Source: an uncultured bacterium
Lineage (GTDB): Bacteria > Planctomycetota > UBA1135 > GCA-002686595
Reading direction: 5' to 3'
DNA length: 64,000 bases
Assembly: GCA_938075305.1 (NCBI GenBank)
Contig: CALJGV010000010.1
Span: 248,001 to 312,000, forward strand
Shown in pieces: positions 2,932-23,040 of the stretch. How positions within the stretch are numbered: position 1 is the stretch's first letter; every line of letters starts with the position of its first letter. Made by a program: the position numbers and the translations under genes. The notes beneath the pieces were generated by a model. The model was not told the origin of the DNA and did no database searches. It saw nothing but the letters and a program-made list of their open reading frames with translations.

Positions 2932-5283
2932 CTACTCAGCGACGAGGCCGCTCTCAAGGCGAACGTCGATTGCCTTGCTCCCGGTCTCGAAGGAGCCGAT
3001 CAGAAGCTCGCCGTGAACAGGGGAGAATCGCCATCCGTCATCCGAGGCTTGACCCCCTGGAGGGACATCATCCCGCTCGGCGTGAACCCCGTCCGGGTCG
3101 ATCGGCTCCAGGCGGCCGGTGATGACGCGCCTGCCCTCCGGGTCGGCGTCGAGGGTGGCCATGTCGAACCAGAGGTGGGCCCTCTCGCCGGGCCGAACGG
3201 CCTCAAACGCGTCCTGGAGCGACAGGGGCCCCTGGTCAGGGGCCAGGAGGAACCCCTCCGTCCAGGTGGACCCCTGGGGCCAGCTGCGCACGTCGCCACG
3301 GCCCCAGTCGGGCCTGCGGTAGGAGGTGTAGCCCCGTTGCCCGGTGGCATCCGAGACCCGCAGGCCCAGGGCGTACCCACCCCGCACGACTTCTCCACGC
3401 TGGGCGATGTCGACCTCGACCCAGTAAAGGCCGTCACCGGCGAGCCGGGAGACCCGCAGGTCGTCCAGGCTCATCAGCTCACGCTCGGGCCCGAGGGGGC
3501 GTTCCAGGCGCACGCCCCTGACGGGCCGTGGCGGTGTGGGCGAGGCGCCCCGCACGATCCGGCGACGGGTGCCTTCGGGCACCTGTCGCGTGAAGACGAG
3601 GACCGCGCCGGTGCCCGTGTCCACGCCGCGATCCCAGAAGGCCGCGGCCACGTGGAAGTCGCGGGAGAGCCGCTCGACGATCCCCGCGGCCCAGGGCGCG
3701 GAGAGCAGGGAGGAGTGCATCAAGAAGGCATCCTGGGCCCCCATGCGTGCGAGGCTCTTCTCCATGAGCTCCGGGTTCTCTCGCGCCGCGGCGGCGTCGA
3801 GTTGGAAGGGGAGCTTCTCCAGCGCCCAGCCCGCTGGCGTCCGGAAGAGCACCGCCCAGTGGTAGCTCGAGGCGACCTTCTGGGCCGCCTCCCCGGAGGC
3901 GGTCGGACCCACCTCCAGCCACCTGGCGGCCCGCTCGAAGGCGCCGAACGGGGCGGTGGGGGTCAGCGAGGCCATGAGCGTCGCCTGCAGGATGCCACCG
4001 AGGATCATGGTGGCGACGGCGGCCCCACGGAGCCGCTGGGCGACCGCCGACGGGCCACCGGCGAAGACGAGGAGCCCCACCCCCAGGTAGGCCGCGTAGG
4101 CCGGCAGGACCGGCAGCCAGATCCGCATGTCCTTGCTGCCCTTGAAGCTGGTGAGCGCTCCATAGGCCAGGGCGACGCCCAGGGGCATCAGGGCACCCAG
4201 GGCGGCGCGGCTCCGGCGCTTGACCGCGCCAACCGCAGCGGCGAAGGCGCCCAGGGCCGCTGCCGGCACGAACCAGCGCGGGGAGAACCACTGGAAGTTG
4301 TCGAGGTACCAGGTGCGCCCCGCGAGGGCCCGGAAGTCGTCCGTTGAACGGGAAACGTCGTCGAGGGTGACGTCACCGATGGCATTGGCGCCCTGCTGGT
4401 AGAGCCACTGGCCCAGGTCCACGGCGCCGATCTCGTACAGGAGCTGACCGGACTGGGGCCCGAAGTTGATGAGCACGTACGTCCACAGGCCCACACCGAA
4501 CTGGCCGTAGGTCAGCCGGTCGAGCACGCACTGGATCAGCAGGAGGAGCGCCAGGGAGGTGAGCGTGCCGCCGAGGGCTCGCGCCGAGGCCTTGACCCCG
4601 TCGGAGAGAGTGCGCGCCGCTGCCATGGCGGCCAGGACCAGCAGGACGGGGGGGATCGCCTTGTAGGCGCACACCACCGCCAGCCCGAGCCAGGCCCCGG
4701 CGGCCCTCCCCCTCGCGGCGCAAGAGGGGCCAAACAGGGCCCGCTCCATGCCAAGGGCGAGGGCCACCCCCGCAGCCACGTCGGTCATGGGGATCGCCAT
4801 GAACTGGACGAGGGTCGGGGAGGCGAGGGCGCCCGCGGCGGCCAGGGTGCCCAGGAGGGGCAGGGAAGCCCCGCCGATCCCGGCCGCCGCGCCGATCGCG
4901 ATGGCCAGGCGGCGGGTGGCCACGAGGAGGGCGACGCTGATGGCAACGTGCACCACGGCCGCATAGGTGAGGATCCAGGGGCCTTCGGGGGCCCCCGTCA
5001 GCGCCGCGATCCAGAGCGCCGGGGCGTGGAGGGCCGTGACGCCTGCCGCCCGGACCTTCTGGGCGTCGATCAGCTCGTCGCCCGCCACCAGCGCGCGAGC
5101 GCGCTCGAGGTACTCCACCACATCGGCGAACAGCGCCCCCTCCACCCTGAGGGATGTCCAGGCTCCCAGTGCGATGGCGACGAGAGCGAGGACGACGAAC
5201 CCGGGGTCGGACCAGGCCCCCAGGGAGACTGGCGCCGTCCGCGGAGGCGCTGAGGTGGGGGACCCGTGGTGGGGGGCGCTCAT
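2932..5283 (-). CDS. GT-C-type polytopic membrane protein (putative glycosyltransferase)
   Basis: A 783-residue protein with about ten hydrophobic segments in the N-terminal 450 residues and a soluble C-terminal region of about 330 residues. The first extracytoplasmic loop carries acidic residues in LFADVVEYLERARAL. A later loop holds GSKDMRIWLPVLPAY, similar to the Arg...LP...PAY block of GT-C (Dol-P-Man/ArnT-like) glycosyltransferases. Such enzymes transfer sugars from polyprenyl-phosphate donors on the outer face of the inner membrane. The donor and acceptor cannot be told. The start at 5283 removes a polar Arg/Ser-rich extension and lies 8 nt after a TACCGT box. A 179-bp gap separates it from the lipoprotein gene downstream. 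Confidence 0.55.
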   Translation of the reverse strand: MSAPHHGSPTSAPPRTAPVSLGAWSDPGFVVLALVAIALGAWTSLRVEGALFADVVEYLERARALVAGDELIDAQKVRAAGVTALHAPALWIAALTGAPEGPWILTYAAVVHVAISVALLVATRRLAIAIGAAAGIGGASLPLLGTLAAAGALASPTLVQFMAIPMTDVAAGVALALGMERALFGPSCAARGRAAGAWLGLAVVCAYKAIPPVLLVLAAMAAARTLSDGVKASARALGGTLTSLALLLLIQCVLDRLTYGQFGVGLWTYVLINFGPQSGQLLYEIGAVDLGQWLYQQGANAIGDVTLDDVSRSTDDFRALAGRTWYLDNFQWFSPRWFVPAAALGAFAAAVGAVKRRSRAALGALMPLGVALAYGALTSFKGSKDMRIWLPVLPAYAAYLGVGLLVFAGGPSAVAQRLRGAAVATMILGGILQATLMASLTPTAPFGAFERAARWLEVGPTASGEAAQKVASSYHWAVLFRTPAGWALEKLPFQLDAAAARENPELMEKSLARMGAQDAFLMHSSLLSAPWAAGIVERLSRDFHVAAAFWDRGVDTGTGAVLVFTRQVPEGTRRRIVRGASPTPPRPVRGVRLERPLGPERELMSLDDLRVSRLAGDGLYWVEVDIAQRGEVVRGGYALGLRVSDATGQRGYTSYRRPDWGRGDVRSWPQGSTWTEGFLLAPDQGPLSLQDAFEAVRPGERAHLWFDMATLDADPEGRRVITGRLEPIDPDGVHAERDDVPPGGQASDDGWRFSPVHGELLIGSFETGSKAIDVRLESGLVAE

Positions 5284-5291
5284 GCGGTCCA

Positions 5292-5297
5292 ACGGTA
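5292..5297 (-). promoter_or_regulatory. -10-like box, leaderless type, for the GT-C gene
   Basis: Read on the minus strand the box is TACCGT, 8 nt before the ATG at 5283. No convincing -35 is seen. It belongs to the recurrent short-spacing pattern described in the findings. Confidence 0.35.
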
Positions 5298-5573
5298 GCG
5301 ATTGGGAGATCGATCTCTTCGCGGAAAGGATGGAGCCAGCCCTTGAATCAGGTCGCTCCGATCTCGATGGTGGGGGCGCTCCGGCGATCCGGCGCGTCGC
5401 CCGCACATCGACGCGTCAGATTCCCCGGCGGGACCTGCCCGCCGCGGCGGGGCAACTCGCACACACCATCGCACCATTCCGCCGGCCTATGAACGCCGAC
5501 GGGTAGGGCGGCTCTGGCGTCCCGGGCTCCTTGCTCCGGACGTGGAGGTCGCTCCACAGAGGGAAGTACATCC

Positions 5574-6392: not shown

Positions 6393-7805
6393 TCAGCGCA
6401 GGCCGTAGCGGTCCAGCTTCTTGTAGAGGTGGCTGCGCTGCATGCCCAACTCCTCGGCCGTGCGCTTGACGTTGCCGCCGTTGCGCTCGAGCCGCCGCTC
6501 GAAGAACAGGGCCTCGGCCTCGTTCTTGAACTGTTCGAACGTCTCGGCCTCGAAGGGTCCTTCGACGGAGGCCTTGCCGGCGCCCGCCGGGGTCAGGGCC
6601 GGGCCGGTGGCCAGGACGCGGTCGATGTCCTCCCCGGCGATCCGCTGGTCGTCGCAGAAGATCGAGGCCGCCTCCAGGACGTTCCTGAGCTGCCTGACGT
6701 TGCCCGGCCAGGCATGGGATCGCAGGGCGTTCTCGGCGTCGGTGCCAAGGGCCACCGGGCTCCGGCCAAGGCGCTCGGCCTGTCGTTCGAGGAGGTGGCG
6801 AGCGATGAGGGGGACGTCCTCGGGGCGCGCCCGGAGGGGGGGGACCTCGATGGCGATCACGTTCAGCCGGTAGTAGAGGTCCATGCGGAAGGCGCGGTCC
6901 TCCACGGCCTGGGCCAGATCGGCGTTGGTGGCCGCGAGCACCCGGAGGTCGACGGGGCGGCTGGTGCTGTCTCCCACGCGCATGATCTCGTGGGACTCGA
7001 GGGCGCGCAGCACCTTCGCCTGTGCTGGCAGGGGCATGTCGCCCACCTCGTCCAGGAACAGGTCCCCGCCATGGGAGGCCTCGAAGTGCCCGATCCGATT
7101 CTCGTGGGCCCCGGTGAAGGAGCCCTTCACGTGGCCGAAGAGCTCGGACTCCACCAGGTCGGCCGGGATCGCAGCGCAGTTCACCGTGACGAAGGGGCCG
7201 GCGGCGCGGGGCCCGCTGAGGTGGATGTTGCGGGCGACGAGCTCCTTGCCCACCCCGTTCTCGCCCGTGATCAGCACTGACGCGTCGGTCTGAGCCACCC
7301 GCGCGATGGCCTCGCCGAGCTGCTTCATCACCTCGGACTCACCGATGAGCTCGTACCCGGATCGGAGCTGTCGCTTGAGCCCGAGGTTCTCGACCACGAG
7401 GTCTTGCTCCCGGATGGCCCGGTGGACCGTGACCAGGAGTCGGTGCTCGTCGAGGGGCTTCTCGAGGAAGTTGACGGCGCCGCGCTGCATGGCGTCCACT
7501 GCGACGGGCACGTCGCCGTGCCCGCTGATGAGCACCACCGGAGGGGCGGGGTCACTGGCGGCGATCCGGTCGAGCAGCTCCAGGCCATCGAGGCCGGGCA
7601 TCTTCACGTCCGTGAGCACGAGCGCCGGGGCGGCCGCCTCAGCCTCGAGCCGCGCGAGGGCCTCGGTCCCCGACTTCGCGGTCCAGACCTCGAACCCCTC
7701 GTATTGAAGGGTCATCTCGAGGGTCTGCCGGATATCCGCGTCGTCGTCGACCACGAGGATGGCCTTGCGGGTTCCTTTCCTGCCGTCGTCGGTGCGCTCT
7801 CCCAT
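6393..7805 (-). CDS. Sigma-54-dependent response regulator (NtrC family)
   Basis: A 470-residue two-component regulator that activates sigma-54 promoters. Residues 15-135 form a receiver domain, with the acidic pair in AILVVDDDAD, the phosphoacceptor Asp in VLTDVKMPGLDG and a conserved Lys in NFLEKPLD. The central AAA+ domain has Walker A GENGVGKE, Walker B GDLFLDEVGDMP and a sigma-54 contact loop reading GSFTGA instead of the usual GAFTGA. The C-terminus is a Fis-type helix-turn-helix (NVKRTAEELGMQRSHLYKKL). The start at 7805 puts the receiver at the N-terminus. The upstream in-frame extension is low complexity. No histidine kinase lies nearby, so its partner and targets are unknown. Confidence 0.92.
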   Translation of the reverse strand: MGERTDDGRKGTRKAILVVDDDADIRQTLEMTLQYEGFEVWTAKSGTEALARLEAEAAAPALVLTDVKMPGLDGLELLDRIAASDPAPPVVLISGHGDVPVAVDAMQRGAVNFLEKPLDEHRLLVTVHRAIREQDLVVENLGLKRQLRSGYELIGESEVMKQLGEAIARVAQTDASVLITGENGVGKELVARNIHLSGPRAAGPFVTVNCAAIPADLVESELFGHVKGSFTGAHENRIGHFEASHGGDLFLDEVGDMPLPAQAKVLRALESHEIMRVGDSTSRPVDLRVLAATNADLAQAVEDRAFRMDLYYRLNVIAIEVPPLRARPEDVPLIARHLLERQAERLGRSPVALGTDAENALRSHAWPGNVRQLRNVLEAASIFCDDQRIAGEDIDRVLATGPALTPAGAGKASVEGPFEAETFEQFKNEAEALFFERRLERNGGNVKRTAEELGMQRSHLYKKLDRYGLR

Positions 7806-7811
7806 GGGGGC

Positions 7812-7817
7812 ATTGTG
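7812..7817 (-). promoter_or_regulatory. -10-like box CACAAT for the NtrC-type gene
   Basis: On the minus strand CACAAT lies 6 nt before the ATG at 7805, close enough that transcription would begin at or next to the start codon. Confidence 0.4.
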
Positions 7818-7948
7818 CCCGATCGGCCCCGACGCCGACGAGCCCAGCAGGATCACCGGCAGGAGCCCGGCCGCGCCATGGGCCGCGCAGGGCCTCGTAC
7901 GGGCGGGATCCAGAGGCCGGGACATGGCCCGCGACCGGTGCCATGGGG

Positions 7949-7954
7949 TTCAAT
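7949..7954 (+). promoter_or_regulatory. -10-like box TTCAAT for anmK
   Basis: TTCAAT lies 6 nt before the ATG at 7961. This spacing favours 7961 over the in-frame ATG at 7943, which would lie upstream of the box. Confidence 0.35.
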
Positions 7955-7960
7955 GGGCCC

Positions 7961-9235
7961 ATGCCCACTCCCTCGCCCGCGGATTCGACGCTCCTCTCCG
8001 ACGGAGACCTGGTGGCGGGGGTCCTCTCGGGCACGTCGGCGGATGGGATCGACGTCGCCGTGTGCCGCGTCGGGCTTGAGCGGGGGGAGCGAGGTCAGCG
8101 CGTTCGCAGCGTGGAACCCACGCGGATGGCGACCGTGGCCATGGGGGGCGAGCTCGCAGAGAGGGTCCGGGCCATCCTCGACGGGGGCCCGATCCAACTC
8201 GCGGCGCTCGCGGCGCTGGACCGGGACCTCGGGCGCGCCTTCGGCGAAGCCGCGCGGGAGGTCGCCGGGCCTGACGCGCCCCTCGCCCTGGTGGCGAGCC
8301 ATGGCCAGACCGTCTTCCATCACGACGGCGAACCCGCCCACGGCAAGGTCACGATGCAGCTTGGGGACGGAGACTTCGTCGCGGAGGCCGCGGGGTGCTC
8401 GGTGGCCTCGGACTTCCGGACCCGCGACTGCGCGGCGGGCGGGGAGGGGGCGCCGCTCGTGGTCCTCGTGGACGACGTCCTCTTCGCCCGGGCGCCCCGC
8501 CCCCTGGCGATCCTCAACCTGGGTGGCATTGCCAACTGGACCCTCCTGCGCGCGGGGGGGCGGCCCACCGGGTCGGACGCGGGGCCGGCAGGCGCGCTCC
8601 TGGACGGCCTCGCTCGAGTGCTCCTGGACCGGCCCATGGACATGGACGGCGGCGCAGCGGCCCGGGGAGAGGTCCTGGAGGCGCCCCTCGCTTGGGCCAT
8701 GGAGCACCCCTTCCTCGGGCGGCCCTGGCCCAAGTCCACCGGGCTGGACACCTTCGGGCCGGCCTTCGTGGCCGGCTTCCTCGACGCGGCGCCCGGGGCG
8801 AAGACGGAGGACCTCCTGGCCACCGCGACCCGCTTCGTCGCCCGCTCGGCGGCCGCCGACCTCGTCCGGGGGGGCGGCAGCGACGCCTCCGGCGGCGTGC
8901 TCGAGGTCGCCGTCGCCGGGGGTGGCGCGCGGAATCCGGTCCTGATGGCGGCCCTCGAGCGGGAGCTCTCCGCCGGGCTCGCCGCCTGCGGCGCCGGCCT
9001 GAAGGGCTTCGGCCCCTCCGATCGGTACGGGGTCGCGCCGGATTTTCGGGAAGCCCTGGCCTTCGCGGTGCTCGGGGCCAGGCTCGCAGTGGGGGAGCCC
9101 TCCTCCAGGCCGGAGGTCACCGGGGCGTCAGGGGGCCGAGTGCTCGGGAAGTGGTCTCGTGGGGCCCGGGTGCGCCTGGATGGGCCTCGCAGGTCCTCGA
9201 ATTCGCCGGTAGCCAAGGGCTGCGTCGGGGAATAG
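7961..9235 (+). CDS. anmK: Anhydro-N-acetylmuramic acid kinase
   Basis: AnmK phosphorylates and opens 1,6-anhydro-MurNAc released from peptidoglycan, giving MurNAc-6-phosphate for wall recycling. The 424-residue protein has the family motifs in order: VLSGTSADGIDVAV, VASHGQTVFHHD, SDFRTRDCAAGGEGAPLV, LNLGGIANWTLL, SDAGPAGALLDGL, FGPAFVAGFL and VAVAGGGARNP. These cover the ASKHA-type phosphate and adenosine sites and the catalytic Asp. The length is slightly above the usual 370-390. An in-frame ATG at 7943 would add six residues. I prefer 7961 because of the -10-like box in between. It is divergent from the NtrC-type gene, and no murQ is seen nearby. Confidence 0.9.
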   Translation: MPTPSPADSTLLSDGDLVAGVLSGTSADGIDVAVCRVGLERGERGQRVRSVEPTRMATVAMGGELAERVRAILDGGPIQLAALAALDRDLGRAFGEAAREVAGPDAPLALVASHGQTVFHHDGEPAHGKVTMQLGDGDFVAEAAGCSVASDFRTRDCAAGGEGAPLVVLVDDVLFARAPRPLAILNLGGIANWTLLRAGGRPTGSDAGPAGALLDGLARVLLDRPMDMDGGAAARGEVLEAPLAWAMEHPFLGRPWPKSTGLDTFGPAFVAGFLDAAPGAKTEDLLATATRFVARSAAADLVRGGGSDASGGVLEVAVAGGGARNPVLMAALERELSAGLAACGAGLKGFGPSDRYGVAPDFREALAFAVLGARLAVGEPSSRPEVTGASGGRVLGKWSRGARVRLDGPRRSSNSPVAKGCVGE

Positions 9236-9674: not shown

Positions 9675-11765
9675 ATGAGCCGATCGCGCTTCCTGGGCCT
9701 CTTCGCCCTCCCCGTCCTCGTTGCGAGCGCCACCGCGTTCCCCCTGGACGTTTCCAGCGACTTCGACGCCGCCATCGACCTGTGGTCGCGCGGCCGCAAG
9801 CAGGAGGCGCTCGACGCGATGCGTCGCATGCTCGCTTCCGACCCGGAACCGGCCGAGGTCTTCCAGGTCTACCTCGCCGCGGACTCGGACACCCTCGCCG
9901 ACTTCATGGCAGAGGGCGACGAGTACACCCAGGTCGCCATGCGCTTCATCGAGCGCGCGAGCCTCGGTCGCGCCGAGCTGCGTGACGACGAGGGCTCGAT
10001 CCGGAGCCTCGTGCGCGAGTACATGGGCGCCACCACCACGGCCGATCGCCTCTCGGCGCTCTCGCGCATCAGCGCGCAGCACGGTGAGTACGCGGTGCCG
10101 ATGTTCGTGAACGTCCTCGGGGACGACAGCGATCCCGAGCGCGTCACCGACGCCATGCTCGCGGTGCAGACCATGGGCCCCGCCGCGGTTCAGCCCCTGC
10201 TGGCTGCCCTCGCGTCCGAGAACGACTTCCAGCGGCGCAACGTCGTCATGGCGCTCGGCAACATTGCCGACCCCCGCGCGGGCGCGGCGCTCCTGATGCA
10301 CGCCACCGCCGACGCCTCGGAGACGATTCGGGCGGCCGCGGCAGCCGGCGCCGAGCGCTGCGGCGCCGCCGGCGACCCCGCTGCTCTCTTCCTGCAGCTC
10401 GGCGATGACTACCACCACCGCCGGGCCTCGGTCCTCCGCGACCTGGACTACAGCGATGTGGTCTGGTCCTGGGGCGACGGCGTCCTCGTGGCGAACGAGA
10501 GCCCCCGCGCCATCTACAACAACGTGCTCGCCAAGGGCGCCTTCTACCACGCCCTTGGCCTCGCCCCTGACTCACAGGACGCCGTCGCTGGCATCGCCCG
10601 CGAGTCGGTGGACATTCAGTCCAAGCTGGCGGCCCTCGAGGGCGCCGGTGCGGACGTCGGTTCCCACCTCGAGGCCGCGAACGAGGGCATGCTGGCCGTG
10701 ATGAGTGCCGGCACCGCCGCCCTCGACCGTGCCCTGAACATGTCGGTGGCCTCGGGCGACTCCGCCACGGGCGGCCGCATCGCCGCGGTGCTCGGGGAGA
10801 TCGCCTCGGCCCCCACGGACGGCCTGAACGCCGCGCTGATCGGCGGCGGAGCCTCGATGGCCGGTGAGGCCGCCGTGGCCCTCGGCTTCATCGCCGCCCG
10901 CACCAACACCGCCGTGTCCGGCGACGTGGTCGCCGAGCTCGGCACCGCCGTGGGTCGCCGCGTGGTCAAGCTCGCGGTGATCATCGACGGGGACGCTCAG
11001 CGCGCCTCCGACCTGATCGCCGCGCTCGACGGCCAGGGCGTCCTTGCCCAGCACGCCGGCAGCGCCGCCCAGGGGCTCGTGATGCTCGGCCAGCTGGGCG
11101 GTATCGACACCATCCTGGTGGGCGATGACCTCCCGGACCTCACCACCGACGCCGTGATCTCCCGCGTGCGCCAGAACCCCGCCTTCGAGGGGACCCCGAC
11201 CTACCTGCTCACCGCGGACGAGGACCTGGCCGACGCCTACGGCGACCGGATCCAGGGCAGCTTCGCCGGGGCCGACGGGATCGACGCCCTCTCCGAGGTC
11301 TTCGAGGCCCGCCTTGACGAGAACCGCGCCCGCGCGGACGCCCTCGCTGAGAGCGCCGCGAAGGCCCTGCGCATGCTCGGCTGGCGCGGCAACTCGGACC
11401 TCTCCGGCGCCGTCGCTGGCCTCGCAGCGGCCACCGAGGGCCGCCGTGACGGCATCGCGGTCCCCGCGCTCCACACGATCGGCCTGATCGGCGACGCCTC
11501 CCATGTGGACGTCGCCCTGGCGGTCCTTTCCAACGGAGACGCCTCGGACGAGAGCCGCATCGCTGCGGCCGAGGCCGTGGGCATGATCGGCGGTCGCATC
11601 GACCTCGCCGCCACCGTCTCGAGTGCCATGCGCGAGGTGATGGACAGCGACGCCAGCCTCGAGCTTCGCACGGCCACCGCCAAGTCCCTGGGTCACATGA
11701 ACCTCGGGGCGGAATCCCGCGCCGGCGTCCTCGAGAGCGTCCGCTCGCGAGTCGGCGCCCAGTGA
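9675..11765 (+). CDS. Exported HEAT-repeat protein with embedded receiver-like domain
   Basis: A 696-residue protein. It begins with a signal peptide (about residues 1-20, FLGLFALPVLVASATAF), followed by a TPR-like helical pair and several HEAT-type repeats such as AVQPLLAALASENDFQRRNV and NIADPRAGAALLMHATAD. Around residues 435-540 the fold changes: KLAVIIDGDAQRASDLIAAL, TILVGDDLPDLTTDAVI and PTYLLTADEDL match the beta1, beta3 and beta4 blocks of a CheY-type receiver. The site of the phosphorylated Asp seems to be Gly, so it is probably a non-phosphorylated pseudo-receiver. HEAT repeats resume afterwards. The ATG at 9675 is chosen because it begins the signal peptide. A perfect hairpin follows the gene. 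The function is unknown; a scaffold role is likely. Confidence 0.7.
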   Translation: MSRSRFLGLFALPVLVASATAFPLDVSSDFDAAIDLWSRGRKQEALDAMRRMLASDPEPAEVFQVYLAADSDTLADFMAEGDEYTQVAMRFIERASLGRAELRDDEGSIRSLVREYMGATTTADRLSALSRISAQHGEYAVPMFVNVLGDDSDPERVTDAMLAVQTMGPAAVQPLLAALASENDFQRRNVVMALGNIADPRAGAALLMHATADASETIRAAAAAGAERCGAAGDPAALFLQLGDDYHHRRASVLRDLDYSDVVWSWGDGVLVANESPRAIYNNVLAKGAFYHALGLAPDSQDAVAGIARESVDIQSKLAALEGAGADVGSHLEAANEGMLAVMSAGTAALDRALNMSVASGDSATGGRIAAVLGEIASAPTDGLNAALIGGGASMAGEAAVALGFIAARTNTAVSGDVVAELGTAVGRRVVKLAVIIDGDAQRASDLIAALDGQGVLAQHAGSAAQGLVMLGQLGGIDTILVGDDLPDLTTDAVISRVRQNPAFEGTPTYLLTADEDLADAYGDRIQGSFAGADGIDALSEVFEARLDENRARADALAESAAKALRMLGWRGNSDLSGAVAGLAAATEGRRDGIAVPALHTIGLIGDASHVDVALAVLSNGDASDESRIAAAEAVGMIGGRIDLAATVSSAMREVMDSDASLELRTATAKSLGHMNLGAESRAGVLESVRSRVGAQ

Positions 11766-11844: not shown

Positions 11845-11880
11845 GCGAGGCCCGCTGCCGCTCACGGCAGCGGGCCTCGC
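11845..11880. terminator. Perfect 16-bp stem terminator-like hairpin
   Basis: GCGAGGCCCGCTGCCG (11845-11860) is fully complementary to 11865-11880 around the loop CTCA. A run of seven A lies on its left side (11836-11842) and would be the U tract for leftward transcription. On the plus strand it separates the HEAT gene from tRNA-Thr. Confidence 0.75.
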
Positions 11881-11954: not shown

Positions 11955-12029
11955 GCCAGAGTAGCTCAGTGGTAGAGCACTGCTTTCGTAAAGCAGCGGT
12001 CACGGGTTCAAATCCCGTCTCTGGCTCCA
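11955..12029 (+). tRNA. tRNA-Thr (anticodon CGT)
   Basis: Cloverleaf: acceptor GCCAGAG pairs with CTCTGGC, D-loop segment GCTCAGTGGTAGAGC, anticodon stem CTGCT/AGCAG with loop TTCGTAA (anticodon CGT), T-arm CGGGTTCAAATCCCG, discriminator T and encoded CCA. It reads ACG codons. It lies 30 bp before the BtpA-family gene and may share its transcript. Confidence 0.97.
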
Positions 12030-21300: not shown

Positions 21301-23040
21301 TCACTTCCGGGCGGCGCCGAGGCTGAGCAGGGCGTAGCTGGTGGCGAGGACCGGGTTGCCCTCCCACCAGCGGGGCGCGTTCCGGTTGGCCCAGCTGCCG
21401 TTGCCGCGGTCCTGCAGGGAGAGGAGCCGGCCCGCGAGCTCGGCCCGCCAGTCGTGCTCCACACCCTTGGCATCGGTCACCGCGTCGACGCCGTAGACGT
21501 CAAGGGCCTTCGCCATGGTGTGGAAGTAGTAGTAGAGGCCCTGGTAGGGGGCGACCGGGTCTCCCCCGGGATCGAACCCCGGGTTGACGTCGAGGGTGTA
21601 GTTCTCGCAGAGCCACTTCCAGCAGGCCTCCACCCGGGGGTCGTCCTTGCTCAGGCCCGCAAAGACGAAGCTCTTGAGCAGAGCGTAGGTCATGGAGCCG
21701 TAGGAGCGGGGGACCTCGGTGCCGTCGGCCAGCTGGACGAAGCCGGCCTTGGAGTCGCCGGGGGCATAGCCCGCGCCGCCGTCGTTGCCGGACTTGATGA
21801 CGATGCCCTTGCGGGTCAGCTCCACGTCGTTCGACTCCGAGCGGTTCTGGCAGCGCTCGAGGAACTTGAGGGCGCGCTGGAACGCGGCGTCGTCCCGGGA
21901 GAGGCCGGAGGCCGCCAGGGCTTCCAGGGACATCTGGAGGTTCGAGAGGTCGGGGCGCTCGTCGCCCCCGTAGCCGATGCCGCCGTAGTACAGGTCTCCC
22001 TCCGAGTACCCCTCGCCCTCGTCGGCCTGCAGCCCGATGAGCCAGTTCCGCGCGCGCAGCACCTGGTCGGCGTACTTGGGCTCCGAGGCGAGGGCCATGA
22101 TCGCGGCCGAGGTGACGTAGTTCGCGAGGCGCCCCTGGTGGATGGAACCGTTGGGCTTCTGATGGGTCACCAGCCAGCCCAGGGCGTCGTCGATCACGGC
22201 CTGGATGTCTGCGGGACGCGGCTGGGGGACCTCGAGCAGCGCGCTGGTGACCATGGCGGTCAGGCCGGCGTCGGGTGCGCCAGGCGCACCCCAGCGGGCG
22301 CCCTCGCCGGCGGCGATGAGGAAGCGTGCGCCGCGCAGGACCGCCTCGTCGATGTCGACCCGGGTGGCGGGGGAGTAGCGCGGGAGCGGTGAGGGCTTGC
22401 CCGCAGGCTGGGCCGGCGGCGCGAGTTGGCTGCGGATCCGTGTCAGCGCCTCGATGGCGCGCGCGGTCTCGGTGACCTTGCCCCTCGCGCCGTCCCACGA
22501 TCCCTCGGGGGCGCGGTCATAGAGGAGCTGAATGGCGAGCCGGGTGGCCCCGGGGGCGTCACCGGGAACCTCGATCTGTTCGAGGGAGGGCGCGTCGATG
22601 CCCTTGCTTGCCAGCACCTTGAGGGCCTTGCCGAGGGGCGCCACGGTGCTGTCGCCGATGTGCACCGACAGCGCGGCGGCCGCAGCGCGGGTCGTGCCCA
22701 GGGAGGACCCCTCGGGCCGGTCCGCCTCCACGAAGGTCCCGTCCGATCGCTGGAGGGAGAGGAGATAGTCCAGGGCCTTCGACACGAAGGGGCCGTCCGG
22801 GCGCTCGTACTTCCTGGGGCTCCTGGCCAGGGCGAAGAGGACCCACGCGGTGCCCTCGATGTCGCCGCCGTAGGCGCCGGTCTCCGGGTTCTGGGTGCTC
22901 CTCAGCCACCGGATCGAGAGGTCGATCTCGCCCTTCAGATCGGGGAGGTCGTCGGCCTTGGGGGCCTGGGCGAACGAGAGTCCGGCGAGGGCCAATCCGG
23001 AGAGGGCGATAGCGAGGGGGAGGGTGAGCAGTCTCAGCAT
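21301..23040 (-). CDS. Exported prenyltransferase/squalene-cyclase-like toroid protein
   Basis: A 579-residue protein with a signal peptide (LALAGLSFAQA). It is built of repeated alpha-helical hairpins of the terpenoid cyclase/prenyltransferase type. QW-like repeats are visible: RWLRSTQNPETGAYGG, DYLLSLQRSDGTFVE, GWLVTHQKPNGSIHQG, NWLIGLQADEGEGY and LLSLQDRGNGSWANR. There is no DxDD catalytic motif of squalene-hopene cyclase, so it is more likely a binding or structural alpha/alpha toroid in the periplasm. Such proteins are frequent in planctomycetes with no assigned role. It is convergent with the sulfatase at zero distance, and a TACGTT box lies 9 nt before its ATG. Confidence 0.8.
   Translation of the reverse strand: MLRLLTLPLAIALSGLALAGLSFAQAPKADDLPDLKGEIDLSIRWLRSTQNPETGAYGGDIEGTAWVLFALARSPRKYERPDGPFVSKALDYLLSLQRSDGTFVEADRPEGSSLGTTRAAAAALSVHIGDSTVAPLGKALKVLASKGIDAPSLEQIEVPGDAPGATRLAIQLLYDRAPEGSWDGARGKVTETARAIEALTRIRSQLAPPAQPAGKPSPLPRYSPATRVDIDEAVLRGARFLIAAGEGARWGAPGAPDAGLTAMVTSALLEVPQPRPADIQAVIDDALGWLVTHQKPNGSIHQGRLANYVTSAAIMALASEPKYADQVLRARNWLIGLQADEGEGYSEGDLYYGGIGYGGDERPDLSNLQMSLEALAASGLSRDDAAFQRALKFLERCQNRSESNDVELTRKGIVIKSGNDGGAGYAPGDSKAGFVQLADGTEVPRSYGSMTYALLKSFVFAGLSKDDPRVEACWKWLCENYTLDVNPGFDPGGDPVAPYQGLYYYFHTMAKALDVYGVDAVTDAKGVEHDWRAELAGRLLSLQDRGNGSWANRNAPRWWEGNPVLATSYALLSLGAARK

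Follow-up and report, generated by a model that had tools for sequence, protein, structure and literature searches.

A putatively exported HEAT-repeat protein retained across Planctomycetota carries an inserted pseudo-receiver domain

To our knowledge, receiver domains are cytoplasmic in all well-studied cases, as are the known pseudo-receivers (e.g., FrzS, PleD, and NblR), unlike the predicted exported protein described here. The FrzS receiver, the second receiver of PleD, and NblR share with that protein a receiver fold in which active-site residues have been lost. The pseudo-receivers with a known function (FrzS and PleD) work via protein contact, and the activation of bacterial pseudo-receivers has been called a mystery (PMC12632262). 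The words "periplasm," "secreted," and "signal peptide" are absent from the text of that review, and a literature search returned no published account of an exported pseudo-receiver. The literature on planctomycete proteomes likewise yielded nothing specific to the present family. The second point of comparison is the HEAT_2 proteins, including the phycobilisome lyase CpcE/CpcF and NblB, with which the protein has HEAT repeats in common.

We analyzed a 64,000-nucleotide stretch of planctomycete DNA (the window), in which a forward-strand open reading frame (ATG 9675 to TGA 11765) encodes a product of 696 aa. In order, the protein comprises a signal peptide, a TPR hairpin, HEAT repeats, a CheY-like domain (residues 432 to 545), and further HEAT repeats (Table 1). 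Its nearest relatives in public genomes were from MAGs (87 to 98% identity). Genus-level relatives (59 to 98% identity) have the MSRSRFLG start in common, and the upstream in-frame extension is variable in close relatives in both length (19 to 105 aa) and sequence, which together support the start at ATG 9675.

Table 1. Coordinates of the features discussed (window positions; residues are those of the 696-aa protein)
Feature	Position	Strand	Evidence
Gene, 696-aa exported (predicted) HEAT/pseudo-receiver protein	9675..11765	+	Open frame, conserved start, phylum-wide relatives
Signal peptide (residues 1-21; cleavage predicted to follow ASATA, A21)	9675..9737	+	Sequence; family-wide n/h/c pattern; residues 1-23 low-confidence in model
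TPR-like helices, N-terminal, residues 26-102	9750..9980	+	TPR_2 in 38/56 family members; model helices
N-terminal HEAT array, residues 106-247	9990..10415	+	Pfam HEAT_2 E=5.3e-12; alphaRep (HEAT-type) structures matched by family profile
Beta hairpin (residues 255-277) containing near-invariant W264	10437..10505	+	Model strands 262-267, 270-275; Trp present in 98% of the 96 members aligned
Second helical region, residues 278-427, first TPR-like and then HEAT-like	10506..10955	+	Model helices; HEAT matches in L086, L092
Pseudo-receiver (predicted fold), residues 432-545: D438, G439, G483, T513, G532	10968..11309	+	AlphaFold, Foldseek, profile search, site table
C-terminal HEAT array, residues 548-689	11316..11741	+	Pfam HEAT_2 27.8 bits, cut-off 27.7; alphaRep matches
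anmK, anhydro-N-acetylmuramic acid kinase, conserved upstream neighbor	7943..9235	+	Pfam AnmK E=1.2e-73; synteny
tRNA-Thr (CGT), conserved downstream neighbor	11955..12029	+	ARAGORN, window and several related loci
16-bp G+C-rich hairpin 3' of gene, terminator-like on both strands	11845..11880	.	Consensus scan, in itself no sign of function

On the single 696-aa sequence, Pfam detected HEAT repeats only (HEAT_2, PF13646; residues 144 to 224; E=5.3e-12; 46.3 bits versus a cut-off of 27.7) and no receiver; the C-terminal HEAT_2 match was obtained on the isolated C-terminal piece. In two relatives (L086 and L092), HEAT matches reach the receiver region, and in L092 they restart beyond it. The CpcF model also matched (residues 112 to 225; E=2.6e-10), but its 40.2 bits fell far under the NCBIfam equivalog cut-off of 220, and the likeness was confined to the generic HEAT part; we therefore rejected a phycobilin lyase identity. 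The top Foldseek matches of the whole model were SPINDLY, karyopherins, and alphaRep. Kinship with these was set aside because the TM scores were low and the matches reflect generic helical repeats. Trp264, in the beta hairpin, is near-invariant phylum-wide.

Single-sequence matches to receivers were weak (NCBIfam CtrA, E=0.009; PDB phmmer, E=0.011), Response_reg was found at E<=0.01 in 42/95 family members, and one relative (L102) scored above Pfam's own cut-off. A profile of residues 426 to 562 from 95 family members matched solved receivers, namely PleD (3e-18), RpaA (3e-16), CheY (about 1e-14), and FrzS (3e-12). In the full-length AlphaFold model (56 sequences; mean pLDDT, 86), the region is predicted to form five strands (432-437, 456-461, 479-483, 509-512, and 528-530) alternating with five helices (441-453, 464-473, 491-500, 516-525, and 533-545), flanked by further helices; a domain-only model (95 sequences; pLDDT, 85.7) had the identical beta-alpha order. 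Foldseek matched the full model to CheY-type receivers in the PDB (TM [target], 0.72 to 0.83), the best 50 PDB matches of the domain model were receiver/response-regulator structures only (best, CheY4 4hnr, E=1e-6), and FrzS and PleD appeared among the sequence or fold matches. Residues 432 to 545 are thus predicted to adopt the (beta-alpha)5 receiver fold. The first-pass annotation had proposed a CheY-like segment interrupting the HEAT repeats, for which structure prediction and a fold search of residues 430 to 545 should give a flavodoxin-like (beta-alpha)5 domain near CheY. The models bear this out, with HEAT_2 on both sides and no sign of continuous HEAT helices in place of an alpha/beta domain.

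The domain resembles a CheY-type receiver (PF00072) in fold, profile match, Thr, and first Asp, and differs from it in lacking the phosphoacceptor Asp, DD2, and the Lys and in having a signal peptide and being embedded in a HEAT solenoid. In the site alignment, D438 occupies DD1, G439 DD2, and G483 the phosphoacceptor position, with T513 at the Thr site and G532 in place of the Lys. Hence, among the residues of a functional CheY-type receiver, the phosphoacceptor Asp at the beta3 end, the second acidic residue following beta1, and the Lys at the beta5 end are missing, and the first acidic residue (Asp438) and the Thr/Ser at the beta4 end are kept; the Gly at the phosphoacceptor position and the partial loss of the acidic pocket had both been read correctly from the sequence. 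The lack of these phosphotransfer residues fits a pseudo-receiver. Among the 56 class members, DD1 was acidic in 48, DD2 was acidic in 4, and Thr/Ser was present in 35, and none had the phosphoacceptor Asp or the Lys. The corresponding counts for 40 other Planctomycetota (including one without a receiver domain) were 26 (DD1), 11 (DD2), 12 (Thr/Ser), 9 (Asp), and 7 (Lys). None of these members had all five residues (L102 has four), and the state of the phosphoacceptor Asp changed at least eight times on a tree made without the receiver; the domain is therefore a pseudo-receiver throughout, with patchy decay. The Asp-bearing members (9/40) might keep some chemistry, which tells against the adaptor reading given below. 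The phosphoacceptor Asp, in some cases with the Lys, is retained in L075, L087, L088, L089, L092, L100, L102, L103, and L105, all with signal peptides.

We consider it probable (roughly 0.6) that the protein is a soluble exported (periplasmic) adaptor in which the dead receiver provides a fixed protein interaction or dimerization surface with no phosphorylation switch. The TPR and HEAT solenoids would hold partner proteins, and the degenerate receiver inserted among them may offer a constitutive surface for interaction or dimerization. As far as we know, neither a histidine kinase domain nor ATP is available to a protein outside the cytoplasm. The most economical interpretation is thus an exported scaffold that carries a fixed module for interaction. 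The first-pass annotation had likewise suggested reuse of the fold for binding, which fits the computed loss of phosphotransfer residues and the excision described below; binding itself we infer, as we do export in living cells and a role in the cell envelope.

The family was found in 61/61 close relatives and in 120/121 genomes of the class, usually as a single copy. Matches at E<=1e-10 were present in 223/246 sampled Planctomycetota genomes, an upper estimate because some matches are partial or perhaps HEAT-only. A plasmid search found no relatives. The family tree mostly tracks taxonomic families, as expected under vertical descent; L078 and L082, from other families, were placed inside the class with weak support. 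The receiver was present in 56/56 class members and 39/40 members of other families. Its conservation in the phylum set (1.72 bits per column) was about equal to that of the helical regions (1.65 to 1.90), and it thus appears to be under selection.

The exception is one family (f79) in which the receiver alone is gone (model positions about 430 to 548), with HEAT repeats retained on either side. At four f79 loci read directly, the profile match stops at 427-429 and resumes at 548-554, with 5 to 12 residues between; the match ends at 426-430 in 25/25 sampled f79 genomes. Since the f79 representative is nested in a clade that otherwise bears the receiver, its state is a loss, and since both HEAT arms were retained, the receiver is a removable insert. 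Clean excision was seen in L111, L114, L115, and L116. That one whole family manages without the receiver counts against the adaptor reading, and the clean loss would suit a passive structural insert, i.e., a cap or spacer halving the solenoid with little binding of its own. A mere spacer, however, would be expected to drift or vanish more often than a domain that is retained in nearly all members and conserved about as well as the helical parts, and we regard the passive role as unlikely.

Alternatively, the fold may have been kept for binding a metal or small ligand, with Asp438, Asp440, and Thr513 forming a Ca2+/Mg2+ or ligand site in a phosphate-free periplasmic sensor. The class counts for DD1 and Thr/Ser, together with D or N at position 440 in 45/56 members, are consistent with such a site, whereas DD2, so seldom acidic here, directly binds metal in true receivers (PMC12632262), and retention of an acidic DD1 is nothing special, being found as well in about 80% of ordinary pseudo-receivers (PMC12632262). 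A ligand-binding role of this kind seems rather improbable to us.

At the N terminus, a signal peptide (MSRSRFLGLFALPVLVASATA, cleavage before F) was predicted by a crude n/h/c rule plus conservation. Within the class, 53/56 members passed the rule, as did 38/40 from other Planctomycetota; these counts are no proof by themselves because the rule gave a false positive on an over-long NtrC ORF in the window. In the five failures, a signal peptide was visible by eye, and the start was too far upstream or the score was borderline. The n/h/c pattern with A-x-A-like ends persists family-wide, even where identity has fallen to about 25%, and a scan for a further strongly hydrophobic stretch beyond residue 40 was negative. 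A signal-peptide-like N terminus is therefore recognizable in practically all aligned family members, in line with the original proposal of a signal peptide, and the protein appears to be exported from the cell in nearly all Planctomycetota. A cytoplasmic protein, with an uncleaved anchor or unrecognized N terminus and an ordinary cytoplasmic pseudo-receiver, would match the location of well-studied receivers, and the rule's false positive speaks in its favor, but the family-wide pattern and the lack of a second hydrophobic segment make it very improbable.

The usual gene order in the class is an NtrC-type regulator (divergent), anmK, the pseudo-receiver gene, tRNA-Thr(CGT), and often btpA. 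A same-strand anmK and/or nagZ-like GH3 gene lay within about 5 kb at 32/43 class loci, some of which are near-duplicates or have little flanking sequence, and also at nine loci from nine other families; L054, L077, L080, and L090 are among the loci with these recurrent neighbors. From this company, the protein may have a role in the cell envelope, perhaps in peptidoglycan turnover. The adjacency is suggestive only of a link to peptidoglycan recycling and could be a slowly decaying gene order. Eight loci of other (deeper) families have larC nearby in place of anmK/nagZ, so the cell wall link is not universal. The NtrC-type regulator (6393-7925, minus strand) was rejected as a partner because it is a cytoplasmic-type protein and is divergently read. 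Elsewhere in the window, an 824-aa ORF (2932-5406, minus strand) had no Pfam match at E<=1e-5, with similar ORFs near the gene at 10 other loci, and a 579-aa protein (21301-23040, minus strand) contains a squalene-hopene cyclase C-terminal/TED-like domain (E=1.9e-10). The hairpin at 11845-11880, between the pseudo-receiver gene and tRNA-Thr, is a perfect 16 bp.

Pseudo-receivers are common. We give about even odds to the broader proposal that a core gene of the phylum takes a receiver across the inner membrane, where, without phosphate, it would act as a constitutively binding part of an envelope scaffold, possibly in peptidoglycan turnover. If true, the receiver fold has shifted from two-component signaling to extracytoplasmic architecture. 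A near-universal, apparently exported pseudo-receiver, out of reach of cytoplasmic kinases, would isolate the non-phosphorylation function of the fold, for which the Asp-keeping lineages and the receiver-excised f79 are natural experiments. Planctomycetota have an unusual cell biology, and this conserved, unnamed, predicted exported scaffold, often encoded beside cell wall recycling genes, is a target for studies of their envelope.
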